Positions 1,408 to 64,000 of a stretch of 64,000 nt of DNA are shown here, in pieces (positions within the stretch are counted from its first letter, which is position 1; every line of letters starts with the position of its first letter). The stretch is taken from the NCBI GenBank assembly GCA_017506865.1, contig JAFCMP010000084.1, positions 1 through 64,000 on the forward strand, in the 5' to 3' direction. The stretch comes from Tribonema minus (Eukaryota > Sar > Xanthophyceae > Tribonematales > Tribonemataceae). The position numbers were made by a program, and so were the translations under genes. Under the pieces are notes generated by a model that saw only the letters and a list, made by a program, of their open reading frames with translations, was not told the origin of the DNA and searched no databases.

Positions 1408-4400
1408 CTCTTGGAGTCCCTCTGCACCACCACCCAGCGCCTGCACGAGCGCTGCTGCTGCTGCCCCCGTTAGCGCTCCGAAGGCCACCGCATCCGCCGC
1501 CGGCAGCGCCACCCCCGCTAGCGCCTTCCACTCCCCGTAGCCCTCGCCCCCAGCCGCAACAACCTGAAGGCATGCACAGTTTTGGCACTTATGTTCATTT
1601 TTTGGCACTTGTGTTGAGGGAGTGTCACCTGAGAACTGCATCGGGCAAATCGCAACAACCTGAAGGCATGCACACACGTGTCAAGAAGTAAATCTTGTGT
1701 ACAGTGAAGCAGCTCGTATGGCATTGGTGGTGAATATTTTATAGTGTGTGCACGTGCAGTAGTTCCATGTTTGGACCAAGAAGCAGGTAGCAGACACGGC
1801 ATTTGTAAGAATTTATCGTTCAATGCAAACATTTTGGGGGGTTTCTGGTGAGGGAGTGGCACCTGAGCACTGCCACCGGGCAAGATGGCCAGCACCCCTA
1901 AACCTGCAGCCATGTATACAATAGCGATTAATGTGTGGGCGTCGCCTGATAACTGCCGCTGGCGCGCACTACTGCATTCTCTAGCCACATCAACAACGTC
2001 GGTGAAGACTGAGACTGATGTCGACGAACACTTGCTGAGCACTGCCGTGTGCGAGCGTCAACACTGGCAGTGAAGACTGGGATGACACATGCAGGTTTTG
2101 CTGAGCACGAGTGTCAACATCAACAGTGAGTCTCTTACAAAAGAACCTAGGAGTACTCATCTTCAAGTCAAATACTGAACTTTGAATGTTGAATGTGCAG
2201 GTCAGAGTCTCAAAATGTGTTTGCGGATTGTTGCCTTTTTCCTGGTCACTTTTGACTTTACAAATTGGGACTGGGATGACACGACGCGGCTTGTGCTGAG
2301 CGCTGCTGTGTGCGCAACACTCCAAGAATAAACAACAAATTGCTGAGCACTGATGTGTGCGCAAAGGAGCCCCCACCAACTCCCCGTAGCCCCTCTCCAG
2401 CACCCGCCACAACCTGAAGCCATGGTTCTTTTTTGTTTATGAGCGTGTGCCTTGTGGGGCGAGTGCCAGCTGGGCACTGCCGCAGGGACGCAGCACTTCA
2501 ACTTGAAGTCGTCTGTCAGACACGGGATCGCCACTGGCGATACGGCATCCAGCCGCTGAACCTGAGCTATGACCTGGGGCGCGTGTTACTTTTGTGGGTC
2601 AAAGCTAGCTGAGCACTGCCGCGTGCAGCGCGCCAAAATGTCATGCCGACATGTGATTTAAACTGAGACATGCCATGGTCACCACTGACAGCTCCTAGAG
2701 CCTGTGATGACTGACGCTGCCACAAACTTAAAACCCTGAACACGCTGCGCGCGACTGGCGCCAACCACACCAGGGCGTCTGCGTTTTCTTGCGAGGTCGT
2801 TCCCTTGTGCCGGCGTCGCTGCCGCCGGCGCCGCGGCAGCGGCAACCGCTGCTGCACACCCTCGAAGGTCTGCCGCGGGCACCATTTGCCAAGCCAACGG
2901 GTGCTCTGGCGTGAGTTCGTAAATGACACATACGCGTACATGCATGCGCGGTGCACCACCACTTCACTTTGTCGGCTTTAACGCCATCGCGCAGTACGCA
3001 TAGCCCCACAGGGCAACGCGCTCTTGTCACTGGCCTGCCCTGCCATCACCCTGCTGCCGCCGCTGCCGACGCCTCCTCACCAGCCGCAGCTGCCGTCCAC
3101 TCGGGGCCATGAGCGTCACTGATCATCCTTTCGGGCAGCTGAAATGACTCGGCCAAATGACAAATATACGTACCAATGCACCATTGCAATGCACTGTGTT
3201 ATTACCATCGCACAATGTGCCACTCTCATCACTCGCCTGTGCGGGCGCCGCCGCTGCCGCCGCTGCTGCTGGTGCCTCCCCAGCTGCAGCCGCCTTCTGC
3301 TTAGCCTCAATGTCCGTGAGCGCCAGGAAATACGCCTCCGCATCCTTCTGCCGCAGCAGGCCGCTGCTGTAGAGCGCCAGCACCTTGTCCGCCGCGCTGC
3401 AGATTTGAGTGAGTGAGTGAGTAAGTGAGTCAGTGAGTCAGTTAGAAGTATGCCTCGCGCTGCAGATTTGAGTAAGTGAGTGAGTGAGTCAGTGACTCCG
3501 TCAAAAGTAAATGCCTCTGCATCCTTCTGCCTCAGCAGGCCGCTGGTGTAGAGCGCCAGCACCTTGTCCGCCGCACTGTAAGTTTAAGCGAGCGAGTGAG
3601 TGAGTGAGTGAGTGACTCTGCCTCAGCGGGCCGCTGCTGAAGCTGACCAGCACGTGGCCCTGCAATGTGAGTGAGTGAGTGAGTGAGTGAGTGAGTGCGT
3701 GAGTGACGCAGTCAGAAGTATGCCTCCGCATACTTCTGCCTCAGCAGGCCGCTGCTGAAGAGCGCCAGCACCTTGTTCGCCGCGCTGCAGATTTGAGCGA
3801 GTGAGGCACTGAGTGAGTAATTGAGTGAGTGGAGTGAATATGCCGCAGCAGGCTTCAGTGAGTGAGTCATTTAGTTAGTCTGCCACAGCAGGCCGCAGCC
3901 GTAGAGCTTGTCCGTTGCGCTGCAGATTTCAGTGAGTGAGTGAGTGAGTCAGGGAATGAGTCTGCTGCAGCGGGGGCCGATGCTGTTGTGACTTATTGCC
4001 TGTCTGCGGCGCTGCAGACTTGAGCGAGTGAGTCACTGAGTGCGCGAGCGAGAGCATGCACCGAGCATAGCAAGGCACCCCTTGCGCTGCAGCACTGAGG
4101 ATTTATGTGAGAGTGTGAGCGAGTCAGTCAGGGAGTAGGTGATCGCGTGAGTCAATGAGTGGATGGGCGGTGATACTGCGTGTAAACTGCTGCCCGCCAC
4201 TCCCTCAGTGGTACAAGCGTGCCATGCCTGAAGGGCCGTGAAGTCACACACATTCATCGCTGCTGTTTGTCGCTCGGCGGTGTCGATTGCGCAGCGACAT
4301 CGCAGCGCCAATCACACAGAGTGGCATCTCCGTGACAGCAACAATGACTGTCAGTACAACGAGGGTGCCAACAGGCGACAGTTATACCGCTGTAACAGTC

Positions 4401-52739: not shown

Positions 52740-55737
52740 ACATCGACGGCAACAGCTACCACGTCGCTGCCACAGCAGCAACCGGCGTGCACACCCATCG
52801 GCAACCGCTACGCAAAGGGACCAGCGCACGCGCAGCAGGCACCTGCTGCTCAGGCTGGTGGCAGCAGCTCCTCCGGCAGCTCAACGAGGCCGGAACGCGG
52901 GGGCAGCAGTGCTACACGAGGGGGTGGGGGTCGCAGTGGAGGGCGCGGACGTGGCAATGGAGGACGTGTTCGCAGCGGCAGCAATGATGCAGACATCAGC
53001 AGTAGCAGAGCGACTAGCGGCAGCAGGAGGCGGCAGCAGCAGCGGTGCCGGCGGCGGCAGTGCAGCCGGTACTAAGGACAGCGGCGCTGGCAACGGCCGC
53101 AGCAGTGATGCCAGCAGCCGCAGCGGCGGTGCTAGCAACAGCGGCAGTGGCGCGCAAACTCAAAACGGCCGCAGTGGCCGTGGCAGCGGTCGCAGCAGCG
53201 ACAGCGGTGGACGAGGCTGTGGTCGTGGCGGCCGCGGCGGCGGCGGAGGGGGCCCCCGAGCGGCAGGTGCGGCGACAGCAGCGGCAGCGCCTGCAGGCGC
53301 AGCAGGTGGGGCAGGTGGGCTTTTCACGTGGACCATCTCAACCCCTGCAGTCGCAGCAGTGCTTGACAGCATCAGCCTCGATGAGCTGTGCAAGCTGCAG
53401 TTCGCGACAACTAGAAGCCTTGCTAGACCACGCAATCGCCGCTATGTAGGAGCTGCACTGGAGAACGCAGCAACACATCTGTTGGCACGCACAATGACGA
53501 TGTTCGTAAATGCGGCGCGGGAGCCCGATGCCGCAGGGCGGGTGCAGCGACTGCAAAGATCCACGATTCTACACCACCTCATGCCATCACTCATCACCTC
53601 CACCGATGGCGCACCTGGCATCACTCGCTCCGACAGAATCAGAATGTTGGCACGCGGTGAGCTTGACCGGTTGGTGCCAGCGCTCCTCGCACACGCGCGT
53701 GCGCACCGGCGCTGGCGCGCGCGCCAGCAAACGGAGGCAGCGATCAACGCCTACGTCCTACAGTGCATGGGCACACGGGGGGGGCTACAGCAGGCAGCGC
53801 GTTTCCTTCAGCCCAAAACGGTGGCGATACCTGATGATGACTGCTTTGCCGCCATGCAGTCCAAACACCCCCCCGCTGCGCCAGGGGAACAACTCCATGA
53901 GCTATCCGGCATGGTTGATCAGCTTGTGGCGAAAGCAGCCGACATGCCAGCAGAACTCAGCCTGTTACAGGGGGAGGGAATTGAGCCAGAGACGGTTGCC
54001 AAGCTCATCCAGCGAGCAAGCCCTTACAGTGGAGCAGGCCCATCGGGGCTGCGCTACAGCCACCTGCAGGATGCGCTACGCACAAGCTGGGGACGGCATG
54101 AGTTTGCTGCTGTCCTCACACGGTGGCTTCAGGCCGTTATGCGGGAGGCTGCGCGGCTGCCGGATGCCTTCTGGCAGTTGCATGGCGCGGGGCGCCTGAC
54201 GCCACTTGCAGAACAACAGGAAGATGGTACAGCTAAGCAGCGGCCCATCGTTTGCGGCGAGGTGCTGCAGCGACTATGCACTTCGGTGTGCGTGGCAGAC
54301 CGCAAAGACTTCCTGGCGGAGCTCCTTGAGCCAGACGGGCAGTATGGGGTAGCCGTCTCAGCAGGAGCGGAGAAAGCGGCCATGGCCGGCAAACTCGCGT
54401 ATGAACTTGGTCACTGGCAGTTCATGCTGGACCTCAAGAATGCCTTCAACATGGTGTTCGTCCTGGCGGCAGCGGAATGGGTAGCAGTGCACAGCTGCCG
54501 GACTTCCTCGACTACTTCATCGGCACATACGTTCGCACTCGGCCACGCCTGCTGTTCCAGCATGTCGACGGCTCCACGCGCATCATCATGTCTCGGCGCG
54601 GGGTTTTGCAGGGGGACCCCGCAGCACCGATGCTCTTCTGCGGCGCCATTGCGCAGTGCTTGAAACGGTTCAATGAGGCGGCGGCCGCGCAGCGCGCGCG
54701 GAGGCGGATGGGCGCCTACATGGACGATGCCAACGTCCGAACAGGCGCTTGCACGCTGACTCAGGATGACATACAGGCGGTGGCGCAGCTCAAACAACAC
54801 TTTGCGGAGGTGGGGCTGGAGCTAAACCTCACCAAGTCACGCGCGCTGCCTGGCAGGGGGCATGTGGTGACAGACCACGAGCGGCAACTGCTGCAGCAGC
54901 TGGGCGTTCAGCTAGTGGGGGATACGGATGAAAATCAGAACCGCGGAGCTGTGTTGCTGGGGGTGCCGGTGGGCCACAGCAGCTTTGTGGACGCATGGCT
55001 GCGCAGGGAAGCGGGTGCAGGCGGGGCAGGGGCTCGATTCGCAGAGCGATGCGCGCGCCTGACATCTCCGAGGGCTATGTTCAGGTTACTGCGCTACTGC
55101 GTGGTGCCTCGCATGACGTACTGCCTGCGCACCATTCCCACTACGCAGACAGCGCCAGCCGCCAAGGAGTGGGATCGTGTCACGCAGTGGGTGCTTGAGC
55201 ACTCAATGGGCCTGCAGCCACCAGGCCAGACCTGGCACCAGTTTGAGCAAAGTGGGGCCCACTTCCATCTGGCAGCACACGGCCCAGCCTTACAGCAAGC
55301 GCGACTCCCAACACGGCATGGCGGCCTTGGCATTACCAGCGCCTGCGACATCGCTGATGCTGCGTATGTGGCGGGCACGTTGCAAGCGCTGCAACCAGCA
55401 CTCTCTGGATGGGCGGGGGTGCTGCAGCAGGCGGCTCCTCAAGCGGCTGCAGACGACGCTGCTGAGGATGCGGCAACACAAGCGGCACCGGCAGCAGCGG
55501 CAGCAGCACCAGCACCAGCAGCATCAGCAGCGGCAACTGTTACAGCGGCAGCGGCGGTTGCCAGTGGAGGCGCGACCGCTCCGGCAGCGGCAACTGCATC
55601 AGCGGCAGGCCGCGCTTATGGCGCAGCCATTCCGGCAACACACGACGCAGCTGCCGCTGGATCAGGGGCCGCGGCGGCAGCACAGGCGGCACCAGCGGCA
55701 GCAGCAGCGGCGGCGCACGGCGCACCTACTCCGGCGG
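52740..55737 (+). mobile_element. LINE-type retrotransposon, 5' part with reverse transcriptase
   Basis: Gly/Ser/Ala-rich N-terminal region, then a reverse transcriptase of the non-LTR class: GPSGLRYSHLQDAL (about 54019), RPIVCGEVLQRL (54241), DLKNAFN (54430), RGVLQGDPAAPMLF (54597), catalytic YMDD (54717) and GLELNLTKS (54811). This order and spacing match the RT family seen in algal and oomycete LINEs whose C-terminus carries a zinc motif and an endonuclease; subfamily not settled. The frame changes near 54470, so this copy is probably defective, or the base there is wrong. An Ala-rich linker begins near 55440 and is interrupted at 55737 by the chromovirus. The 3' part resumes at 63284. Confidence 0.8.
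55734..55737. repeat. Target-site duplication GCGG (left)
   Basis: The same four bases follow the other LTR at 63280-63283. The site is GC-rich and repetitive, so a 4-base match alone is weak, but it agrees with the TG...CA ends and with Ty3/gypsy integration. Confidence 0.6.
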
Positions 55738-55945
55738 TGATGAAACAACTAGTCTCCGTACTACACTTCAGCAAGTGCAGGGAACAATGCAGAGAAGACA
55801 CCCACACACAACACAGCTGACCGAACTGTGCTATGTGTATTCTGGGGCTGCTGCTCTTGTCTGAGCCAAACAAACAACAACGAACAACTCGTAACTGCCA
55901 ACCGTAACAGTTACAGGTGACACTCCAACATCCAGTGTCACCACA
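55738..55945 (-). repeat. 3' LTR of the chromovirus
   Basis: 208 bp, TG...CA, identical by eye to 63072-63279. Short for a gypsy LTR. Confidence 0.93.
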
Positions 55946-56127
55946 GTCACCCCCCCTAGATTGGAAAGGGTACTGCAAGGGGGACCCACTACACATATGC
56001 AACATGACTCGCAAGCCAATGCTACACATTGCAATGACTCCTGTGCAAACGCAGTCAATATGCAAAGGCATGCCGCACAAGACGCCTCTCACACGCCGGG
56101 GTCTCTACCAAGCACATGACCGTGTGA

Positions 56128-59100
56128 CTACACATGCAATGATTCCAGCTGGGCTTGTGTGCCAACTAGGAACCAAGAACCATTCGATGCATCTGGGCGC
56201 GTGTTGTACAAGCTAGGGTCCAGTACTAGGGTCTGATACACCCCTTCAACAATCCAGAACACCCTATGAGCTATCTGTGTACGCCTTGTCTTCCCCTTTG
56301 AGACTACGCCTGTGAGCTCGCCCTCACACCAAGTAAGGTGCTCTTCGCCGCTTGGCTCCGTGAACTTGAAAACAGCCATAAGCTGCAGTCCGCTGATAGC
56401 TGCACTCTGCAACACCGATGTCGCAGGTGGCTGGAGTAACGCCTCCGCCAGAGGCGCAAGCTCATACGAGCCCGCACCACATTGGGCCAGAACGCCGCCA
56501 ACGCCCCGCGCCTTGACGGCGCGTCGCAGCTGACGCTTGACCACCTGAGTGTTTGAGCCCGCCACTGTAATGTCGCGACAGGCAATGGCCTTGTTTAATG
56601 TAGACCAGTACTCCTCGAGTACTTGGGGGCACTCATCTAGCTGCTCGGAGTCCTCCCACGAGTCAACTATCCCCCCGCTGGTTGCACCCTCCCAGCGTAT
56701 TAGGTACTGTAGGCGGTGCCCCCGCCCGCGCGCTGCCGCCGCTACACGATGTTGAAGTATCGCCTCTACGCCGTGCCGCTGGAAGTTGTGAGCAGCAACG
56801 TCGTCAGTAGAGAGTGAGCCAGGTGAATGCCCGCTCCAGTGCTTCGCCAGCAGGTAGCGAGAGAAGCCCGCAGGCAACGTCTCCGGCTGCTGCCGCATGT
56901 CGCTAGGGTCGCGACACTTCTTGGTGAGGCGCATCGATATGCGCGTAGGCCGTCCGTTGATGTCCACCAGAAGACACCCGGCCTGCACACGCTCCCCGCC
57001 GCTCTCCGCCGGGCCCGCTAATATTATGCTATAGGGCCCATGCCATCTATCCAAGAGCTTCTTGCTAAAGAGTGTGCGCTTCGCCTTGTTGAACTCCCCC
57101 GCCACTGGTGCCGGCTCCGTGTCTGCAGATGCCGTATGCGTGCGCGGCACATGGTAGTACCACACTCGCTCACCAGCGCTGAACGACTGACGTAGTCCAA
57201 ATGCCTCCGCGATCTCGGTGTTCTCGCGGAGCACCTTAGCCCGTCGCAGCGCATGACGTTGGTTGGCAATGGTGTTGGCTGAGCGCTGCCGCTCAAGGAT
57301 GTCGAACACTAGCTGTGACACTGAAGGATGTGTGCCAGGCTTGACCAAGGGCTGTTGAAGCTTGCCCAGTATGAGGTGTAGTGCGACGGCGGCCTCGCGA
57401 CCAGTAGCCAGAAGGAAGGGGGTTGCGCCGGTGGCGCGGTTGTAGGCAGTGTTGTGGGCAAAACTGATATGAGGTAGCCAGTCCGCCCAATTGTTCTTGG
57501 CACTATCAACTAACATGGCGAGCATCTGGGCTAGCTCCTGCATGAAACGCTCACACTTGCCGTTGCACTCAGGGTGGTATGCGGTAGTGGAAAGCTTCTT
57601 GACGCCCATCTGCTTGTAGACAGCTTGAGAAAGCTCTGCCATGAAGAGGCTGCCGCGGTCGCTGAGGAGCTTAGAAGGGGGACCGTGACGAGTGCTGTGC
57701 TGGTTGACTAAAACTTCAGCTGTGCCAGCAGCACTGTAGTCCCCAGGCTTGATGGGATAGCACCACACCCAGCCCGAAAACAGGCACATCACCACCAGTA
57801 TGTACATGAAGCCGCCAGCACTGAGGGGTAGGGGGCCGAAGTGGTCAAGCGCTAGGCTATGAAAGGCGTAGGGGGGCCTCTCGCGCCATATAGTGGGCCA
57901 GCGAGACAGCTTGCCGGTGTGCTTGAACGCTTGGCAGGGCCAGCAATGATTAACCCAGTAGTTGACGTCTAGGGTCCAAGAGGGCCACCAGCAGTGCGCG
58001 CGGGTGCGCTCCAATGTGCGTTTAATGCCCTGGTGGCCTGCCCAAGCTGAGCCGTGCATCGCCTCAAGAACTTGATCCCTAATGGACCGGGGAATGGCAA
58101 GCTGTGGAAGCGGGGATTCGGGGGTGTTGTGCACCAAGAGCTGAGCGTTGCCGCAGACGACAAGGCTGCACTGCAAGGCCCATTTCTGTACCTGGGCTGC
58201 AAGCGCCGCGTCTGCTGGCAGTCCTGCTCCAAGCAGCATGTTGCAAATTGGCCCCAGCTGAGCATCTGCGCGCTGCTCTCGCTGCCAGTCACCAGGCGTC
58301 ATGACGCCCAGTTGAGGATGCTCAGCGAAGCACTCCCATGCACCCGCCTCAGCGTCTGCCGCCTCAGCAAGCGCGGAAATCTGCTCCTCTCCCCCTCCTT
58401 GAAGCGCTGCTACCACCTCCGTGCAGATGTTGATGTACTCTGCTGTTGCAAATGCCTCCAGCCGCTCCCACTCGTGGGCCTGCAGGCAGTACGCCTCGAG
58501 CAGCCGCTCGCGCTCGCTCTCCTCTGCATCTTGTGGTGTAGCAGGGACAGGATTGCGGCTTGGCCCGTCGGCATTGCCGTGTGACGCGCCTTTCTTGTAG
58601 CGAATGGTGATGTTGAAGGCGCTGAGGAACTCGCTCCAGCGCGCGCCGCGCGCGGTGCGCTCGCGAACGCTGTCGATGTACTGAAGAGCGCGGTGGTCGG
58701 TGTAGAGGACAAACGGCGTCCCCCACAGGATGTGTTTGAACTTCTTGATGCCGAAGACGATGGCGCCGGCTTCAAGGTCGGTAGTAGACCAGTTGCGCTC
58801 ATTGGGTAGAGTCGCGCGAGATGTGAAGGCGATCGGTTGCTCCGCGCCGTCGTTGTTGACCTGCGAGAGCACTGCGCCAAAGCCCTCCTTGCATGCGTCT
58901 GTGGCAAGGACAAAGGGGCGCTCGCCTGTGCTGGCGCGCGCGTAGTCGGGGTACTGCATGCAAGTGTGAAGCGCCAGGGCTTCATTGACCTCGCGGATGG
59001 CTTGCTGTTGAGCACTGCCAACTATGAAGTCCACCCCCTTGGCCATCAGATGGGTGAGCGGTGCTACCAGCTTGGCCATGTTCTGAATAAATCGCCGGTA

Positions 59101-62100
59101 GTAGTTTGCGAGGCCAAGCCACGCACGCAGCTGAGAGATGTTGCAGGGGATGGGCATCTCAAGTAGGGCTTGAACTTTGGATGGATCTGGCCTGATGCCA
59201 TCAACGCCCACAATGTGCCCCAGGAACTTGATGTGCTTACACCCTATGTGCAGCTTGCTGGGGGCTAGCTTCATCCCATGATGCTCTAGGCGCTGAAAAA
59301 GGGCTTTGAGGTCGTCGAGGTGCTGAGCCGTGGATGTAGAGTGCACAATGACGTCGTCAATGTAGGGCTGGACGCGCTCTAGGCCGGAAAGCACCATCTG
59401 CATGAGGCGTGTAAAGTGCCCTGGCGCCCCCGCTGCCCCCTGTGGGCACCGTAGCCACTCATACAAGCCAAACGACGTGACCATGGCAGTGAGGGGGATG
59501 CTGTCTGCATCTATGGCACTAGTGAAGTACCCACTGGTGATGTCCATGGTGGTGAAGACCTTTGAGCCCCCCAAACTATTGAGAAGATCCTCTATGTTGG
59601 GAATGGGGATCTGGGGGATCTTGGTCTGGGCGTTCAGCTTCTTGTAGTTGACGGTGATTCGGGCAGTGCCATCAGGCTTGAGCACTGCCACCACTGGGGA
59701 TGCCCACTCAGAGTTGGAAGGGCGGATGATGCCAGCAGCCAGCAGCTTGTCGATTTCGACCTTGACCAGAGCCGTCATTGCAGGAGAGTACCTATATGGA
59801 CGGTCATGGTGCGGTGTGCTGCCCTCTTTGAGATCAAAGCGGAAGGGCAATGTGTTACAATGCCCTATGTCCCACTTGTCTTTTGAGAACATTTTGCTGC
59901 TATACTGAGCGAGCAGTAGGCACAAACACGCCACCTGATCAACGTCCCATCCCTGCAGGTCAACGCGCACTGCCAGCATGTAGTCTGGCAAGTGCTTGCG
60001 TGCCTCAGCCAAAGCAGCATTAACCTTAGGGTCTTCGTGAACGTATGACCCCAAACTTAAGCCGCCGCTGTCAGGAATGTGTACTTTTGCGCTCCCACTA
60101 GGCTCAAAGTCAACGGCCTCACCGAGGTGTTGCTGCAGCGCCTCTCGCACGGCTGCTGCGCCCTTCGCAATAGTCGCGTCAGCGCTGCTGCCGGCGTCAC
60201 CCTCCGGCTCCGCCTCGCAGCGCATAATGTCAGTGCGCAGGTCCAGCACAAAGATGTGCTCCTCCCTCCCAGCGCGCGATGGCGCTGCCGCGGCGGCGCC
60301 TGCCGCGTGCGCGGGCTGCGCCGCTGTATCGCTTGTCACTGATGCTGCCGCTGCAGCATTGCTCCCACTAGCCGCTGCCGCATGCGCGGCGTCCTCAGAC
60401 GCCGCTGCCGCTGCAGAGCGCTGCTGCGCCGCTGCCGCCTGTGCGGAGCTCGCCCACTCCACTGCGGTGGCCATGTGCACTGCGACTGGTTCAGCGCCTG
60501 CATGCGCCGCTGCTGCCGCAGTGCTCTGTTGAGTTGCCACTCCATGCGCGGCGCTGGTCGGCGCCGCGGCAGAATCAGCGTATGCCGCGACAGGCGCGGC
60601 GCCCGTAGGCGCCGCTGCCACCGCAGCGCTCCGCTGCGCGTCCGCCGCTTGGGTGGCGCTCGCCGGCGCCACCGAAGAGACTGCGCGCGCTGCAGCTGGC
60701 GCGGCGCCCACAGGCGCTGCTGCTGCTGCAGCACTCCCTGGTGTCACTGGTGCGCGCGAGGCGTGCGCCGACGCAGCCGCTACACCAGCAGCACGCGCCG
60801 CGACTGGCGCGGCGCCCTCGGGCGCCGCTGCCGTCGCAGCGCTCCGTCGCGCAACTGTTGCCTGCGCGACCTCCTTATGAGCCGCCCCTGAGGCAGCTTG
60901 GGCCGCAGCGCGCACGGTGCCAGCCGGCACCGATGCCGCCGCAGCGCCCCGGCATGCAGCCGCTGCCTGCGCAGCAGCAGCAGTGTCGCCGTGTAGGGGG
61001 CCAGAAGACGTCTCTTTTGTCGCAGAGCTCCGCGGCGCGGCCGCTGACTGCGCGGCACCCTGCGGCGCCGCGGCAGCAGCCCGCGGCGCACTGCGCGCAA
61101 TGCCTGTATATGCTGCCGCCGCAGCAGCGCTTGCCGGCTCTGCTGCAGCAGCGCTCGCCGGCGCCGCCGTCGCAGCGCTCGCCGGCGCCGCCGCAGCTGC
61201 AGCAGCTTGTGCTTGAGGGGCGCGCGCTCCGCGCGCCACACGTCTGCGCGCCTCCTGTGCAAGAGCCACTCCATACTTGCCGAAAGCGTGGTGGGTGCCA
61301 GAATTGATGAGGGTTTGTACTGGATCTGGCAGCGACGATGCCGCCGCCTGGTCCACGACATCATGCAGCAATCCGCTCTGCAGCAGGATCCCCCCCAGTA
61401 GGTCCGCCATTTGCGGGCACACCGCGTTCGCCAGCATCTGTGAGTAGGCAGTGACGTCAGGCGGCTCTGGAGCATCCCACTTGTACGAGGTGGGGAAGCT
61501 GTGAATGGCGCGCAGCGCATGCCAGGGTAGGTACTCCGCGCGCGCGTGCTCAGCCGGGTCCTGCGTAGCATCCTGTGGTCGCACGTCGATGTTAGGCTGC
61601 AGGTTTCGGCGGTATGTGCAGCCGCGAATGGTCGGCGCGGGGCCGTCCATAGAGTACACCTGTTTGGCCTTAGTGTTGCGGCCAACTGTTGCAAAGAAGT
61701 CGCGCCGCTGACCGTTGGAGTCAAGCACGTCGCTGGTGACGTTGCGCACGGTGTCGTACTCAGCTTGCTGCTTGGCATATGTCAGCAACTGCACTGCCTG
61801 GTGCATAGACGCCTGCATGCGCGCGCTGTCGTGCTCGCCAGTGCCAGGTCGCCCCAGCAGCCAAAACACACGCGTGCGCGTCTGAGCAATGCGGCTGTCT
61901 GCACCAGTGATCACTAGCTCCTGCTGCACCGTGAAGCCGCCGTGTGCTGCGCAGCGCAGAAACTCCGCCAGCTCCGGTGCCGCCCTAAGGCCCGGAACAT
62001 TTTCAATCTGCAGTAGTCGGCAGGTCTCTGCGCCCATTGCTACCTCCAGCATGTAGTAGAGGTGCTCCATGCCCAAAGCCGTCTCCCCCTCCCCTGCTGT

Positions 62101-63207
62101 TGAGAACTTCTGGCAGGGGGGGCCCCCTAATAAGACCTCGGCGCGCAGCCGCCTCATATCTGCAATGAGCTCTGCGCGCGTAGATGGGTCCGCCATATCC
62201 CGGCGGCGGACGTCCGTATGAGGGTGATTCTCCTTGTATATCCGAAGAGCGCGCTCCTCAGAGTCAACGGCGAGCTTGACGTTCAAGTAGGGCTGGAGCC
62301 CCTCCGCCAGGCCGCCAGCGCCGCAGTAAACGTCTACCGCCGTGGCGCGCGCGTTCGGGTCTCGTTCCAGCACGCTGTCAGTTACCTCACGTAGCGGCCG
62401 CGCCTTGCCCAGCACGGTGCCACGTGGCAGCGAGACGGGCTCCCCCCGCTGCTCGAGCTTGACCGGCTTGGCATGCAGCCCAACCGTCAGCTCGCGTGTG
62501 TACATGTGATTCAGGAATTCCTCCGCGATGGTCACATGTGCTGTGTCCAGTTCTCCCGGGCAGGAGACGACAGGTGTGATCCCATCAGACTCCATCACTT
62601 GAACCCAAACTGTCTGCACACCATGTTCAAGGCCATCTAGCTCTGTTGCGACGCGCACTACTGCCACCCAATCGCGTTCCTCCCCGTAGGTGTACACTGG
62701 GACTTTGGGACTGAAGCTGGGGGTGGGCTCTGCTGATGGCTCGCCATACACGTATGTGGGCCCACTGCCACTATGACTTGCATGCCACTTATGTCTGCTG
62801 ATGTGGTCACGCCCAATGATGATGTCGTGTGGCAGATGTGGTACAATGAGCGCCAGCTGAGTGAAAGCTACCCCGTCTGGGCCATCAGCCTCAAAGTGAA
62901 GCGCTACAGCGTGGGTGACGCGCTGTGGCTTCTTGGATGTGTCAACACCGGCTACTGCCCTAGGTTTGCTGAGTTGGTGGACATCCCGTTGCTCTATGGC
63001 TCCTGATGCAACTAATCTGCGGAATGCTTGCTCCCTGATGGCAGTAACTGAGCCCCCGTACCGGAACCAACTGATGAAACAACTAGTCTCCGTACTACAC
63101 TTCAGCAAGTGCAGGGAACAATGCAGAGAAGACACCCACACACAACACAGCTGACCGAACTGTGCTATGTGTATTCTGGGGCTGCTGCTCTTGTCTGAGC
63201 CAAACAA
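56128..63207 (-). CDS. Chromovirus polyprotein: MTase-RT-RNase H-integrase-chromodomain
   Basis: A single 2359-codon frame whose first ATG lies within the 5' LTR; the used start is unknown. Order: retropepsin-like stretch (HDIIIGRDHI, ~125-140); C5-cytosine methyltransferase (~289-612) with motif I VDVYCGAGG, motif IV GGPPCQ (Cys365), motif VI ENVPGL, motif VIII QTRTRVF, motif IX PAPTIRG and motif X NAVCP; an Ala-rich linker of ~37-residue repeats (~660-980); reverse transcriptase (~1130-1320, YIDD at 1282); RNase H (TDACKEGFGAVL ~1435, TDHRAL ~1503); integrase with a zinc-binding H-H-C-C region (~1718-1760), D in LDHFGPL, D in SDRGSLF and E in CNGKCERF; chromodomain (~2145-2203, YLIRWEG and WEDSEQL). 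The last ~150 residues are unassigned. The methyltransferase has all core motifs in standard order and resembles compact bacterial-type enzymes. Confidence 0.95.
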   Translation of the reverse strand: MFGSDKSSSPRIHIAQFGQLCCVWVSSLHCSLHLLKCSTETSCFISWFRYGGSVTAIREQAFRRLVASGAIEQRDVHQLSKPRAVAGVDTSKKPQRVTHAVALHFEADGPDGVAFTQLALIVPHLPHDIIIGRDHISRHKWHASHSGSGPTYVYGEPSAEPTPSFSPKVPVYTYGEERDWVAVVRVATELDGLEHGVQTVWVQVMESDGITPVVSCPGELDTAHVTIAEEFLNHMYTRELTVGLHAKPVKLEQRGEPVSLPRGTVLGKARPLREVTDSVLERDPNARATAVDVYCGAGGLAEGLQPYLNVKLAVDSEERALRIYKENHPHTDVRRRDMADPSTRAELIADMRRLRAEVLLGGPPCQKFSTAGEGETALGMEHLYYMLEVAMGAETCRLLQIENVPGLRAAPELAEFLRCAAHGGFTVQQELVITGADSRIAQTRTRVFWLLGRPGTGEHDSARMQASMHQAVQLLTYAKQQAEYDTVRNVTSDVLDSNGQRRDFFATVGRNTKAKQVYSMDGPAPTIRGCTYRRNLQPNIDVRPQDATQDPAEHARAEYLPWHALRAIHSFPTSYKWDAPEPPDVTAYSQMLANAVCPQMADLLGGILLQSGLLHDVVDQAAASSLPDPVQTLINSGTHHAFGKYGVALAQEARRRVARGARAPQAQAAAAAAAPASAATAAPASAAAAEPASAAAAAAYTGIARSAPRAAAAAPQGAAQSAAAPRSSATKETSSGPLHGDTAAAAQAAAACRGAAAASVPAGTVRAAAQAASGAAHKEVAQATVARRSAATAAAPEGAAPVAARAAGVAAASAHASRAPVTPGSAAAAAAPVGAAPAAARAVSSVAPASATQAADAQRSAAVAAAPTGAAPVAAYADSAAAPTSAAHGVATQQSTAAAAAHAGAEPVAVHMATAVEWASSAQAAAAQQRSAAAAASEDAAHAAAASGSNAAAAASVTSDTAAQPAHAAGAAAAAPSRAGREEHIFVLDLRTDIMRCEAEPEGDAGSSADATIAKGAAAVREALQQHLGEAVDFEPSGSAKVHIPDSGGLSLGSYVHEDPKVNAALAEARKHLPDYMLAVRVDLQGWDVDQVACLCLLLAQYSSKMFSKDKWDIGHCNTLPFRFDLKEGSTPHHDRPYRYSPAMTALVKVEIDKLLAAGIIRPSNSEWASPVVAVLKPDGTARITVNYKKLNAQTKIPQIPIPNIEDLLNSLGGSKVFTTMDITSGYFTSAIDADSIPLTAMVTSFGLYEWLRCPQGAAGAPGHFTRLMQMVLSGLERVQPYIDDVIVHSTSTAQHLDDLKALFQRLEHHGMKLAPSKLHIGCKHIKFLGHIVGVDGIRPDPSKVQALLEMPIPCNISQLRAWLGLANYYRRFIQNMAKLVAPLTHLMAKGVDFIVGSAQQQAIREVNEALALHTCMQYPDYARASTGERPFVLATDACKEGFGAVLSQVNNDGAEQPIAFTSRATLPNERNWSTTDLEAGAIVFGIKKFKHILWGTPFVLYTDHRALQYIDSVRERTARGARWSEFLSAFNITIRYKKGASHGNADGPSRNPVPATPQDAEESERERLLEAYCLQAHEWERLEAFATAEYINICTEVVAALQGGGEEQISALAEAADAEAGAWECFAEHPQLGVMTPGDWQREQRADAQLGPICNMLLGAGLPADAALAAQVQKWALQCSLVVCGNAQLLVHNTPESPLPQLAIPRSIRDQVLEAMHGSAWAGHQGIKRTLERTRAHCWWPSWTLDVNYWVNHCWPCQAFKHTGKLSRWPTIWRERPPYAFHSLALDHFGPLPLSAGGFMYILVVMCLFSGWVWCYPIKPGDYSAAGTAEVLVNQHSTRHGPPSKLLSDRGSLFMAELSQAVYKQMGVKKLSTTAYHPECNGKCERFMQELAQMLAMLVDSAKNNWADWLPHISFAHNTAYNRATGATPFLLATGREAAVALHLILGKLQQPLVKPGTHPSVSQLVFDILERQRSANTIANQRHALRRAKVLRENTEIAEAFGLRQSFSAGERVWYYHVPRTHTASADTEPAPVAGEFNKAKRTLFSKKLLDRWHGPYSIILAGPAESGGERVQAGCLLVDINGRPTRISMRLTKKCRDPSDMRQQPETLPAGFSRYLLAKHWSGHSPGSLSTDDVAAHNFQRHGVEAILQHRVAAAARGRGHRLQYLIRWEGATSGGIVDSWEDSEQLDECPQVLEEYWSTLNKAIACRDITVAGSNTQVVKRQLRRAVKARGVGGVLAQCGAGSYELAPLAEALLQPPATSVLQSAAISGLQLMAVFKFTEPSGEEHLTWCEGELTGVVSKGKTRRTQIAHRVFWIVEGVYQTLVLDPSLYNTRPDASNGSWFLVGTQAQLESLHV
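60380..61210 (-). repeat. Ala-rich ~37-residue tandem repeats in the polyprotein linker
   Basis: Between methyltransferase and RT. About seven units of roughly 110 bases, each with a core like QRSAAVAAAPTGAAPVAA. The linker probably separates two independently folding halves; whether it is cleaved is unknown. Confidence 0.7.
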
Positions 63208-63279
63208 ACAACAACGAACAACTCGTAACTGCCAACCGTAACAGTTACAGGTGACACTCCAACATCCAGTGTCACCACA
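63072..63279 (-). repeat. 5' LTR of the chromovirus
   Basis: 208 bp, identical by eye to the 3' LTR. It contains the promoter by family analogy; no TATA box was identified. Confidence 0.93.
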
Positions 63280-64000
63280 GCGGCAGCAGCGGCGGCGGCA
63301 GCAGCAGCTGCTCCAGCATCAGAAGCTGCTGCAGCAGCTGCAGCACATGTTGCACCTCAAGTGGCCTCGGCGGCATCACTAACTGCAGCATCAACAGCAG
63401 CTGCTGCGGGCATAGGCAACACAGCTGCTCCAGCCCCTACTAGGGCTGCTGCAGCACCTGCAACAGGAGCAGCGTCGGCAGGCGGCGCCGCAATCATGCC
63501 GGCCGCGACAGCGGCAATGGCGGTGGCAGCGGCCAATGCGGCAGGTGCTGCACCAACACCTGCGGCAGCAGCAACACCACTGGCAGCAGCAGCAACGGCA
63601 GGCGGCGCAGCTGCAGCACCAGCGCACGCACCAGCGGCAGCCGTCAATGCAGGCGCTGCGCGTTCCACACCAGCAATGCTACAAGGCGCAGCAGCAGCAG
63701 AGGTGGCGCGCCTGCCCCTCATGCGGACGATCGCCACAGCTGCCGCATCCCTACGTGCAGCAACAGGTGACAAGCTGGAACATACATTGCCACCAGCGCT
63801 AACGCCACTGCAGCAGCAACCACCTACGCAGCAGCCGCCGCTGCGGCCGACAGCAGGTGGTGGCACTGGTGCGGAGGCTGTTTGCGTACTTGACGCCAGT
63901 GCTCTGCAGTTGCAGTGTAGCCTGAAGCGCCCCAATCAGAGTGCGCTTGCAGATGCCGTCGCTACCGAGCTTGCAGATAAGGTGGAGGCGGACCTGCAAC
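63280..64000 (+). mobile_element. LINE, 3' part (runs off the window)
   Basis: Begins with the GCGG duplicate and continues the Ala-rich linker, open on the plus strand to the window end. After the linker the sequence becomes less biased (RLPLMRTIATAAASLRAATG, then LQCSLKRPNQSALADAVATE), as expected for the thumb/linker region that precedes the C-terminal zinc motif in this RT family. The endonuclease end lies outside the window. Confidence 0.7.

Follow-up and report, generated by a model that had tools for sequence, protein, structure and literature searches.

A bacterial/phage-like C5-cytosine methyltransferase in the Pol polyprotein of Ty3-type retrotransposons of Tribonema minus

Introduction

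Why would a genomic parasite methylate DNA itself? Retrotransposons are usually the targets of cytosine methylation, and the question is raised by a stretch of 64,000 nucleotides from the alga Tribonema minus (contig JAFCMP010000084.1, positions 1–64,000, hereafter the window), in which positions 55738–63279 of the minus strand are confirmed as a Ty3/chromovirus long terminal repeat (LTR) retrotransposon carrying a C5-cytosine DNA methyltransferase (MTase) in Pol. Elements of this alga thus appear to bring their own prokaryote-type methylase, and in one family (family B) selection on it is about equal to that on the reverse transcriptase (RT). Retrotransposons bearing a C5-MTase were known already; a C5-MTase in a Ty3 Pol that by sequence comparison is of bacterial/phage type may be new. 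Copies are numerous in this single 158-Mb genome, some of them young and one a deletion derivative, and there are also RT matches near which no MTase was found, which makes the use of the enzyme to the element testable and gives a way to approach the question above.

A methyltransferase inside a chromovirus Pol

The MTase domain (61372–62343; all element features are on the minus strand) was recognised by a PF00145 match, by conserved motifs I, IV, VI, VIII, IX and X and by a predicted MTase fold with target-recognition region, confirming the motifs listed by a first-pass annotation made from the window's letters alone. It lies in a Pol frame of 2,359 codons (56128–63207), whose program-set TTG start falls within the LTR and is not taken as the true start. 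Pol runs from a protease remnant (62785–63057) through the MTase, an Ala-rich linker (60118–61170, ends approximate) with 105-nt repeats (60368–60971), the RT (Pfam RVT_1, 59209–59682, YIDD present), RNase H (58615–58923, profile match) and an integrase, made up of a zinc-binding domain (57919–58095, profile match) and a core (rve, 57571–57831; 31.6 bits, slightly under the Pfam cut-off of 32.6), to a chromodomain C-terminal to the integrase (56602–56769; 29.2 bits, cut-off 25.1). The domain assignments uphold the arrangement first proposed, an MTase between protease and RT followed by an Ala-rich linker and a C-terminal chromodomain. Two direct 208-nt LTRs with TG...CA ends (5′ 63072–63279; 3′ 55738–55945) are 100% identical and are flanked by a GCGG target-site duplication (63280–63283 and 55734–55737, unstranded). 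Together with the protease–RT–RNase H–integrase order, in which the protease is only a remnant in this copy, these features are those of a Ty3/Gypsy chromovirus. A polypurine tract (AGGGGGGGTGAC, 55946–55957) adjoins the 3′ LTR and also precedes the 3′ LTR of L018, a family B copy.

Judged by its sequence, the window copy is a recent yet defective deletion derivative. The insertion is recent because both LTRs are identical. The 5′ LTR is followed by a 9-nt stretch resembling a primer-binding site (GTTGGTTCC, 63063–63071), the same 9 nt that come next to the 5′ LTR in a second family A copy, the one in L052, and then by a deletion junction that leads straight into the protease active site; leader, Gag and protease aspartate are gone. 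The protease remnant was assigned by motif, the window copy giving no protease Pfam match: it reads GGSVTAI...IIIGRDHISRHKW, compared with WDTGASVTAI... in the fuller copy L010, in which the active site DTGA is present. Having lost Gag and the protease active site, the window copy could move only with proteins supplied by another copy. The single element first described is thus real in its anatomy, but is a deletion derivative and one member of one of several families.

Among the 126 MTase matches listed, six copies elsewhere in the genome have an open frame of 2,936 aa. Family A copies compared for mutation counts are 99.4–99.8% identical to one reference copy. In family B, L018 has 4-bp flanking repeats (GCCG), LTRs that are 99.1% alike and a chromodomain match of 22.9 bits, under the cut-off (25.1).

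Affinities of the methyltransferase

The domain is predicted to fold like M.HaeIII, which led the ranking of the predicted structure (27.7), followed by M.HhaI (25.4), DNMT1 (25.2) and DNMT2 (about 22). Matches to compact bacterial and phage MTases run along almost the entire domain, and the profile match to the bacterial ones takes in its target-recognition region. In a midpoint-rooted tree of 65 rows, which included no eukaryotic DNMT1, DNMT3 or DNMT5, the element MTases form two clades (clade 1, support 100/100; clade 2, 100/99) that a 98/98 branch sets apart from the rest together with 14 further rows; these comprise bacterial sequences, with compact alphaproteobacterial enzymes among them, one viral contig and unnamed database proteins. 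Within this tree the element MTases group with compact bacterial/phage C5-MTases, as the first-pass annotation had suggested in calling the enzyme bacterial-like. Named relatives of this kind (PHROG 116; Paenochrobactrum L136, Devosia L139, viral contig L056 and siphovirus A0A8S5PVD1, the last four at 22–29% identity to the window MTase) lie outside retroelement Pol as far as seen. No large protein matching the MTase region of the polyprotein was found among 2,356 candidates.

Motif IV is PCQ in family A, whereas the further families seen have PCT or PCV, and the motifs are intact across relatives at 33–66% identity.

Selection on the methyltransferase

The MTase is maintained and not decaying. 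Of the 126 MTase matches listed, 41 are essentially full length without a stop: 27 in family A, covering residues 1–324 at ≥96% identity, and 14 in family B, covering residues 2–324 at 65–66% identity. Family B, the best-dated family, allows different parts of Pol to be compared in the pair L018/L015. At a synonymous divergence (dS) of 0.40, its MTase shows 75.5 synonymous and 20.5 non-synonymous changes, a ratio of non-synonymous to synonymous rates (dN/dS) of 0.070 (0.039–0.115), about the same constraint as on the RT (0.060) and integrase (0.077); the linker stands at 0.67 (0.39–1.29) and the Ala-rich N-terminal part of Pol at 0.46. Purifying selection is also seen in a family E pair (0.127), in D pairs (0.095 and 0.175 at dS above 1.6, one further pair being saturated) and between A and B (0.18, dS 1.6). 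Loss of the core motifs by neutral decay, which the first-pass annotation named as grounds for abandoning its claim, is not what we observe.

Families and Pol orders

A PF00145 profile search of the genome contigs gave 123 scored matches of 378 candidates. Merging these with 92 of the 126 rows of a similarity listing yielded at least 192 MTase-matching places, a number that includes fragments, four non-element genes and possible alleles or duplicates. A count of copies sharing one domain order had been proposed at the outset; the copies follow at least two Pol orders. Clade 1 consists of families A, B and D, with C placed by identity, and has the order protease–MTase–RT, the protease being recognised by motif in A and D and in family B (L018) by a Pfam match ahead of the MTase of 19.5 bits, under the cut-off of 28.2. 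Clade 2 (families E, F, H and I) is about 20–22% identical to the window MTase, and its order is MTase–protease in E and F, the two families in which it could be read: in E a protease match follows the MTase (23.3 bits, cut-off 28.2), and in F a VDCGA...ILG protease motif was seen by eye after it.

The two orders could reflect two separate captures or a single one after which the domain was relocated, and either would fit the sequences. Ten of the 14 non-retroelement rows join clade 2, weakly, at 88/69, and forcing the retroelement MTases into one clade costs 1.34 log-likelihood units and is not rejected (approximately unbiased test, p-AU 0.46); we therefore dropped the claim that clades 1 and 2 are proven separate captures. 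Tentatively, and somewhat short of an even chance, the Ty3-type elements of this one alga may have taken in bacterial/phage C5-MTases on two or more occasions. The points of entry into Pol would differ (clade 1, after the protease; clade 2, before it; and perhaps, on contig C509, between RNase H and integrase), and the outcome would be a methylation system encoded by the elements themselves that spread out into many families.

The third position is known by coordinates only and from one example, G000:C509:276190-278637 (minus strand), where an MTase match is placed after RNase H and ahead of the integrase. Measured from start to start, RNase H and integrase are about 2.26 kb apart in five pairs (C509, C96, C257, C334 and C57), but 1.77 kb apart at C401, and the distance in the window element is 0.83 kb. 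Relatives outside the genome were found in JGI or ENA sources (P0002–P0006, P0009–P0011 and P0016), and in P0006 a single frame contains, as judged by eye, both an MTase and a protease motif.

Expression of Pol

In L010, a Gag with a CCHC knuckle (CYNCGGDHLFSAC) lies upstream of Pol in the same frame, with one TAG between them. This TAG is followed by GGGTGCG in all nine family A and B copies examined (L009–L012 and L014–L018; the set omits L013, whose frame begins later), eight of which have the CCHC pattern, L015 being one Cys short. In family D, copies L022 and L024 likewise show a CCHC pattern, a TAG-GGG and an open frame in that order; TAG-GGG occupies the corresponding position in L019 and L020, with no CCHC seen upstream, and the border was not found in L021 and L023. 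The 2,936-aa frame is accordingly not a single open Gag-Pol frame, a description we rejected, since the Gag with its CCHC knuckle lies upstream and is ended by the in-frame UAG.

A hairpin follows from +7 in copies of families A, B and D (TAG and hairpin together were noted at L010:666–712, L018:667–713, L020:184–230 and in others). Its upper stem differs in sequence among the three families with pairing kept: 68 of 72 cells pair in 11 sequences (six distinct), and three positions are altered on both sides between families, with five further pair types, compared with 25–41 pairing cells and 0–4 pair types when one arm was slid as a control. The structure model was derived from the same six distinct sequences as were used for the covariation count. 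L022 and L024, which form a similar hairpin with other spacing, were excluded from that count, and taken by itself the hairpin has weak thermodynamic support (in three sequences, z from −0.5 to −1.1), so that the case stands on the covariation. The conserved UAG in a frame common to Gag and Pol, with a covarying hairpin behind it, makes it probable that Pol arises by stop-codon readthrough at the Gag end, and the MTase would therefore be made and packaged at the Pol level, with RT. We take this junction to resemble the murine leukaemia virus kind of readthrough. Possibly UAG is instead a sense codon in the host, against which stand the 2,936 codons after it, free of any stop codon.

What the methyltransferase may do

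We give about an even chance to the reading that a compact bacterial/phage-type MTase in Pol has been kept as part of the replication machinery and methylates the element's own cDNA. A chromovirus lineage would have taken the enzyme into Pol between protease and RT and retained it as a working part; its substrate would be the element's double-stranded cDNA, methylated either within the particle or on integration, and a new copy would thus enter the genome pre-marked and be spared host attack on unmethylated DNA, or be tolerated early, with the chromodomain then placing it. MTase activity, substrate and packaging are all inferred here, and several results weigh against this reading. A CpG methylation footprint was sought in the mutation patterns of the element and not found, among only 37 variants: C>T/G>A variants numbered six at 1,176 CpG positions and 15 at 3,300 others, and observed/expected CpG was 0.86 in the element and 0.83 in the flank. 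This could be explained by a non-CpG target, efficient repair, young copies or low power. Constraint on the MTase is weak in families H (dN/dS 0.57) and I (0.33), hence not every MTase lineage is alive. Furthermore, Ty3-type elements here may move without an MTase, as 115 of 150 RT and 89 of 150 RNase H matches among those listed have no MTase match upstream; 60 of the RNase H and 35 of the RT matches have one 1.5–4.8 kb upstream on the same strand, compared with one and none, respectively, on the opposite strand. Since these counts cover only the matches listed, they do not establish MTase absence for any family. Finally, DNMT2, which methylates tRNA, gives the best sequence-profile match among solved structures (clade 1, E 4.5e-11; clade 2, E 3.5e-18), and the substrate may therefore be RNA.

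The DNMT2 match speaks for an enzyme used in the DNMT2 way, with element RNA or the tRNA primer as its target, which would aid packaging, priming or RNA stability and would not mark DNA. The missing CpG footprint would also fit, and RNA methylation was raised for SymbioLINE in the available text of de Mendoza 2018 (PMC5890265). However, DNA MTases lead DNMT2 in the structural ranking, and the match to compact bacterial enzymes extends through the target-recognition region, so we consider an RNA substrate distinctly unlikely. Rather unlikely, too, is action on the host genome or on other copies, in which a chromodomain-guided integrase-MTase would mark the chromatin surrounding an insertion and thereby make new copies tolerable or silence rival ones. 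The chromodomain is in the same polyprotein and elements do meet, a family A element being inserted in MTase-bearing family E elements (L051 and L052), but the protease of fuller copies would be expected to split the domains apart, and a CpG footprint is again missing.

There is very little to be said for a functionless passenger carried by young copies. Copies of the window family are too alike to show decay and H and I are weakly constrained, but the family B ratio is close to that of RT at a dS of 0.40, far from that of the linker, and the motifs have survived wide divergence; dN/dS leads us to reject passenger decay for families B and E. Equally improbable is another case of the KnitGypsy-Dnmt3 type, in which a host DNMT3 was taken into a Ty3 Pol. 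The two share the idea of an LTR Gypsy element whose Pol includes a C5-MTase kept by purifying selection, but the MTases here group beside bacterial/phage enzymes, and none of the families seen has the PCN that is motif IV of DNMT3. In the Protein Data Bank (PDB), the clade 1 profile hit 50 distinct sequences at E ≤ 10 and the clade 2 profile 52 at E ≤ 0.1; no chain named DNMT3 occurred in either set, in both cases with no positive control; DNMT3 chains are presumably present in the PDB. DNMT3 was also not among the best 50 Foldseek or best 50 VIA-align matches, which excludes nothing.

Comparison with known systems

The literature is cited here from partial texts. De Mendoza 2018 (PMC5890265) describes a DNMT3 in the Pol of an LTR Gypsy element of Klebsormidium nitens (KnitGypsy-Dnmt3), under purifying selection, and two kinds in Symbiodinium, SymbioLINE-Dnmt (an orphan MTase) and SymbioDIRS-Dnmt3, whose MTases are in high copy with Ka/Ks < 0.2 in most comparisons. 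Like KnitGypsy-Dnmt3, the T. minus elements carry a C5-MTase in the Pol of a Ty3/Gypsy-type element of a photosynthetic alga, but the former is DNMT3-type with DIRS-like repeats, whereas here the MTase is bacterial/phage-like and the LTRs are plain and direct. The chromodomain, the probable UAG readthrough hairpin, the several families and the two Pol orders are also not KnitGypsy-Dnmt3-like, as far as the partial text goes. The Symbiodinium elements share with ours a retrotransposon-borne C5-MTase, many copies and purifying selection; they are set apart here by element type (LINE, long interspersed nuclear element, and DIRS, not Ty3), and a non-LTR element with its MTase in ORF1 (open reading frame 1), as in SymbioLINE-Dnmt, differs from one with LTRs and an integrase. 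The position of the MTase beside bacterial/phage enzymes and its not being DNMT3-like by profile search agree with a capture separate from that of KnitGypsy-Dnmt3, in line with the independent capture first proposed; the SymbioLINE orphan MTases may yet be relatives.

A 2025 survey (PMC12344493) mentions, in the text available, orphan MTases carried by LINEs and DNMT3 carried by DIRS elements and by LTR elements that it calls Copia; antiviral roles have been proposed for transposon methylases (PMC6338049), and an N4/N6-type methylase occurs in a DNA transposon (PMC12477816). No Ty3 case was found in the available part of PMC9998398. Three scaffolds of Cymbomonas tetramitiformis with >10,000× coverage and homology to a chromodomain, an RNase H domain and a cytosine MTase (PMC5741210) are possibly the same kind of element, although not described as one element in the part of that paper at hand. 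No Ty3 element with a non-DNMT3 C5-MTase was found in the searched part of the open-licence literature, which excludes most subscription journals and bioRxiv preprints, and one may be described elsewhere.

Other methyltransferase genes and genomic context

The same genome holds stand-alone C5-MTase ORFs of another type (L026, L027 and L028; 367–390 aa from stop to stop) with strong matches to phage families (L027, the one tested, matched PHROG 363 at 1.5e-45), which may be endogenised viral genes. An exon resembling host DNMT2 was seen by eye (L029).

Some copies are perhaps allelic or duplicated: L011 and L012 share a 3′ flank and L051 and L052 a 5′ flank, with the family A LTR at the same site of the family E elements on the two contigs of L051 and L052, either a duplicated nested pair or allelic contigs. 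Light-harvesting (PF00504) matches number 92 in the genome, many as short exon-like pieces, and one control cyanobacterium also matches PF00504; gene pairs on C1/C79, C70/C489 and C490/C296 have near-equal scores. This suggests that the assembly retains both haplotypes in places, and copy counts may therefore be inflated. TTTAGGG-type repeats were matched 11 times, in four cases within 600 bases of the start of a contig; like the light-harvesting matches, they point to a photosynthetic eukaryote.

Scanning the window for tRNAs and for Rfam families (gathering scores) gave no match. On the plus strand, an RT-encoding ORF with strongly Ala-rich stretches (52858–55737 and 63284–64000) is split by the element. 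The left part of the interrupted ORF (54477–55737) matches RVT_1 at 33.5 bits and is cut within an Ala-rich stretch. With both GCGG copies kept after removal of the element, the plus-strand frame meets a stop at codon 474; with the element and one GCGG copy removed, it is open for 659 codons to the window end.
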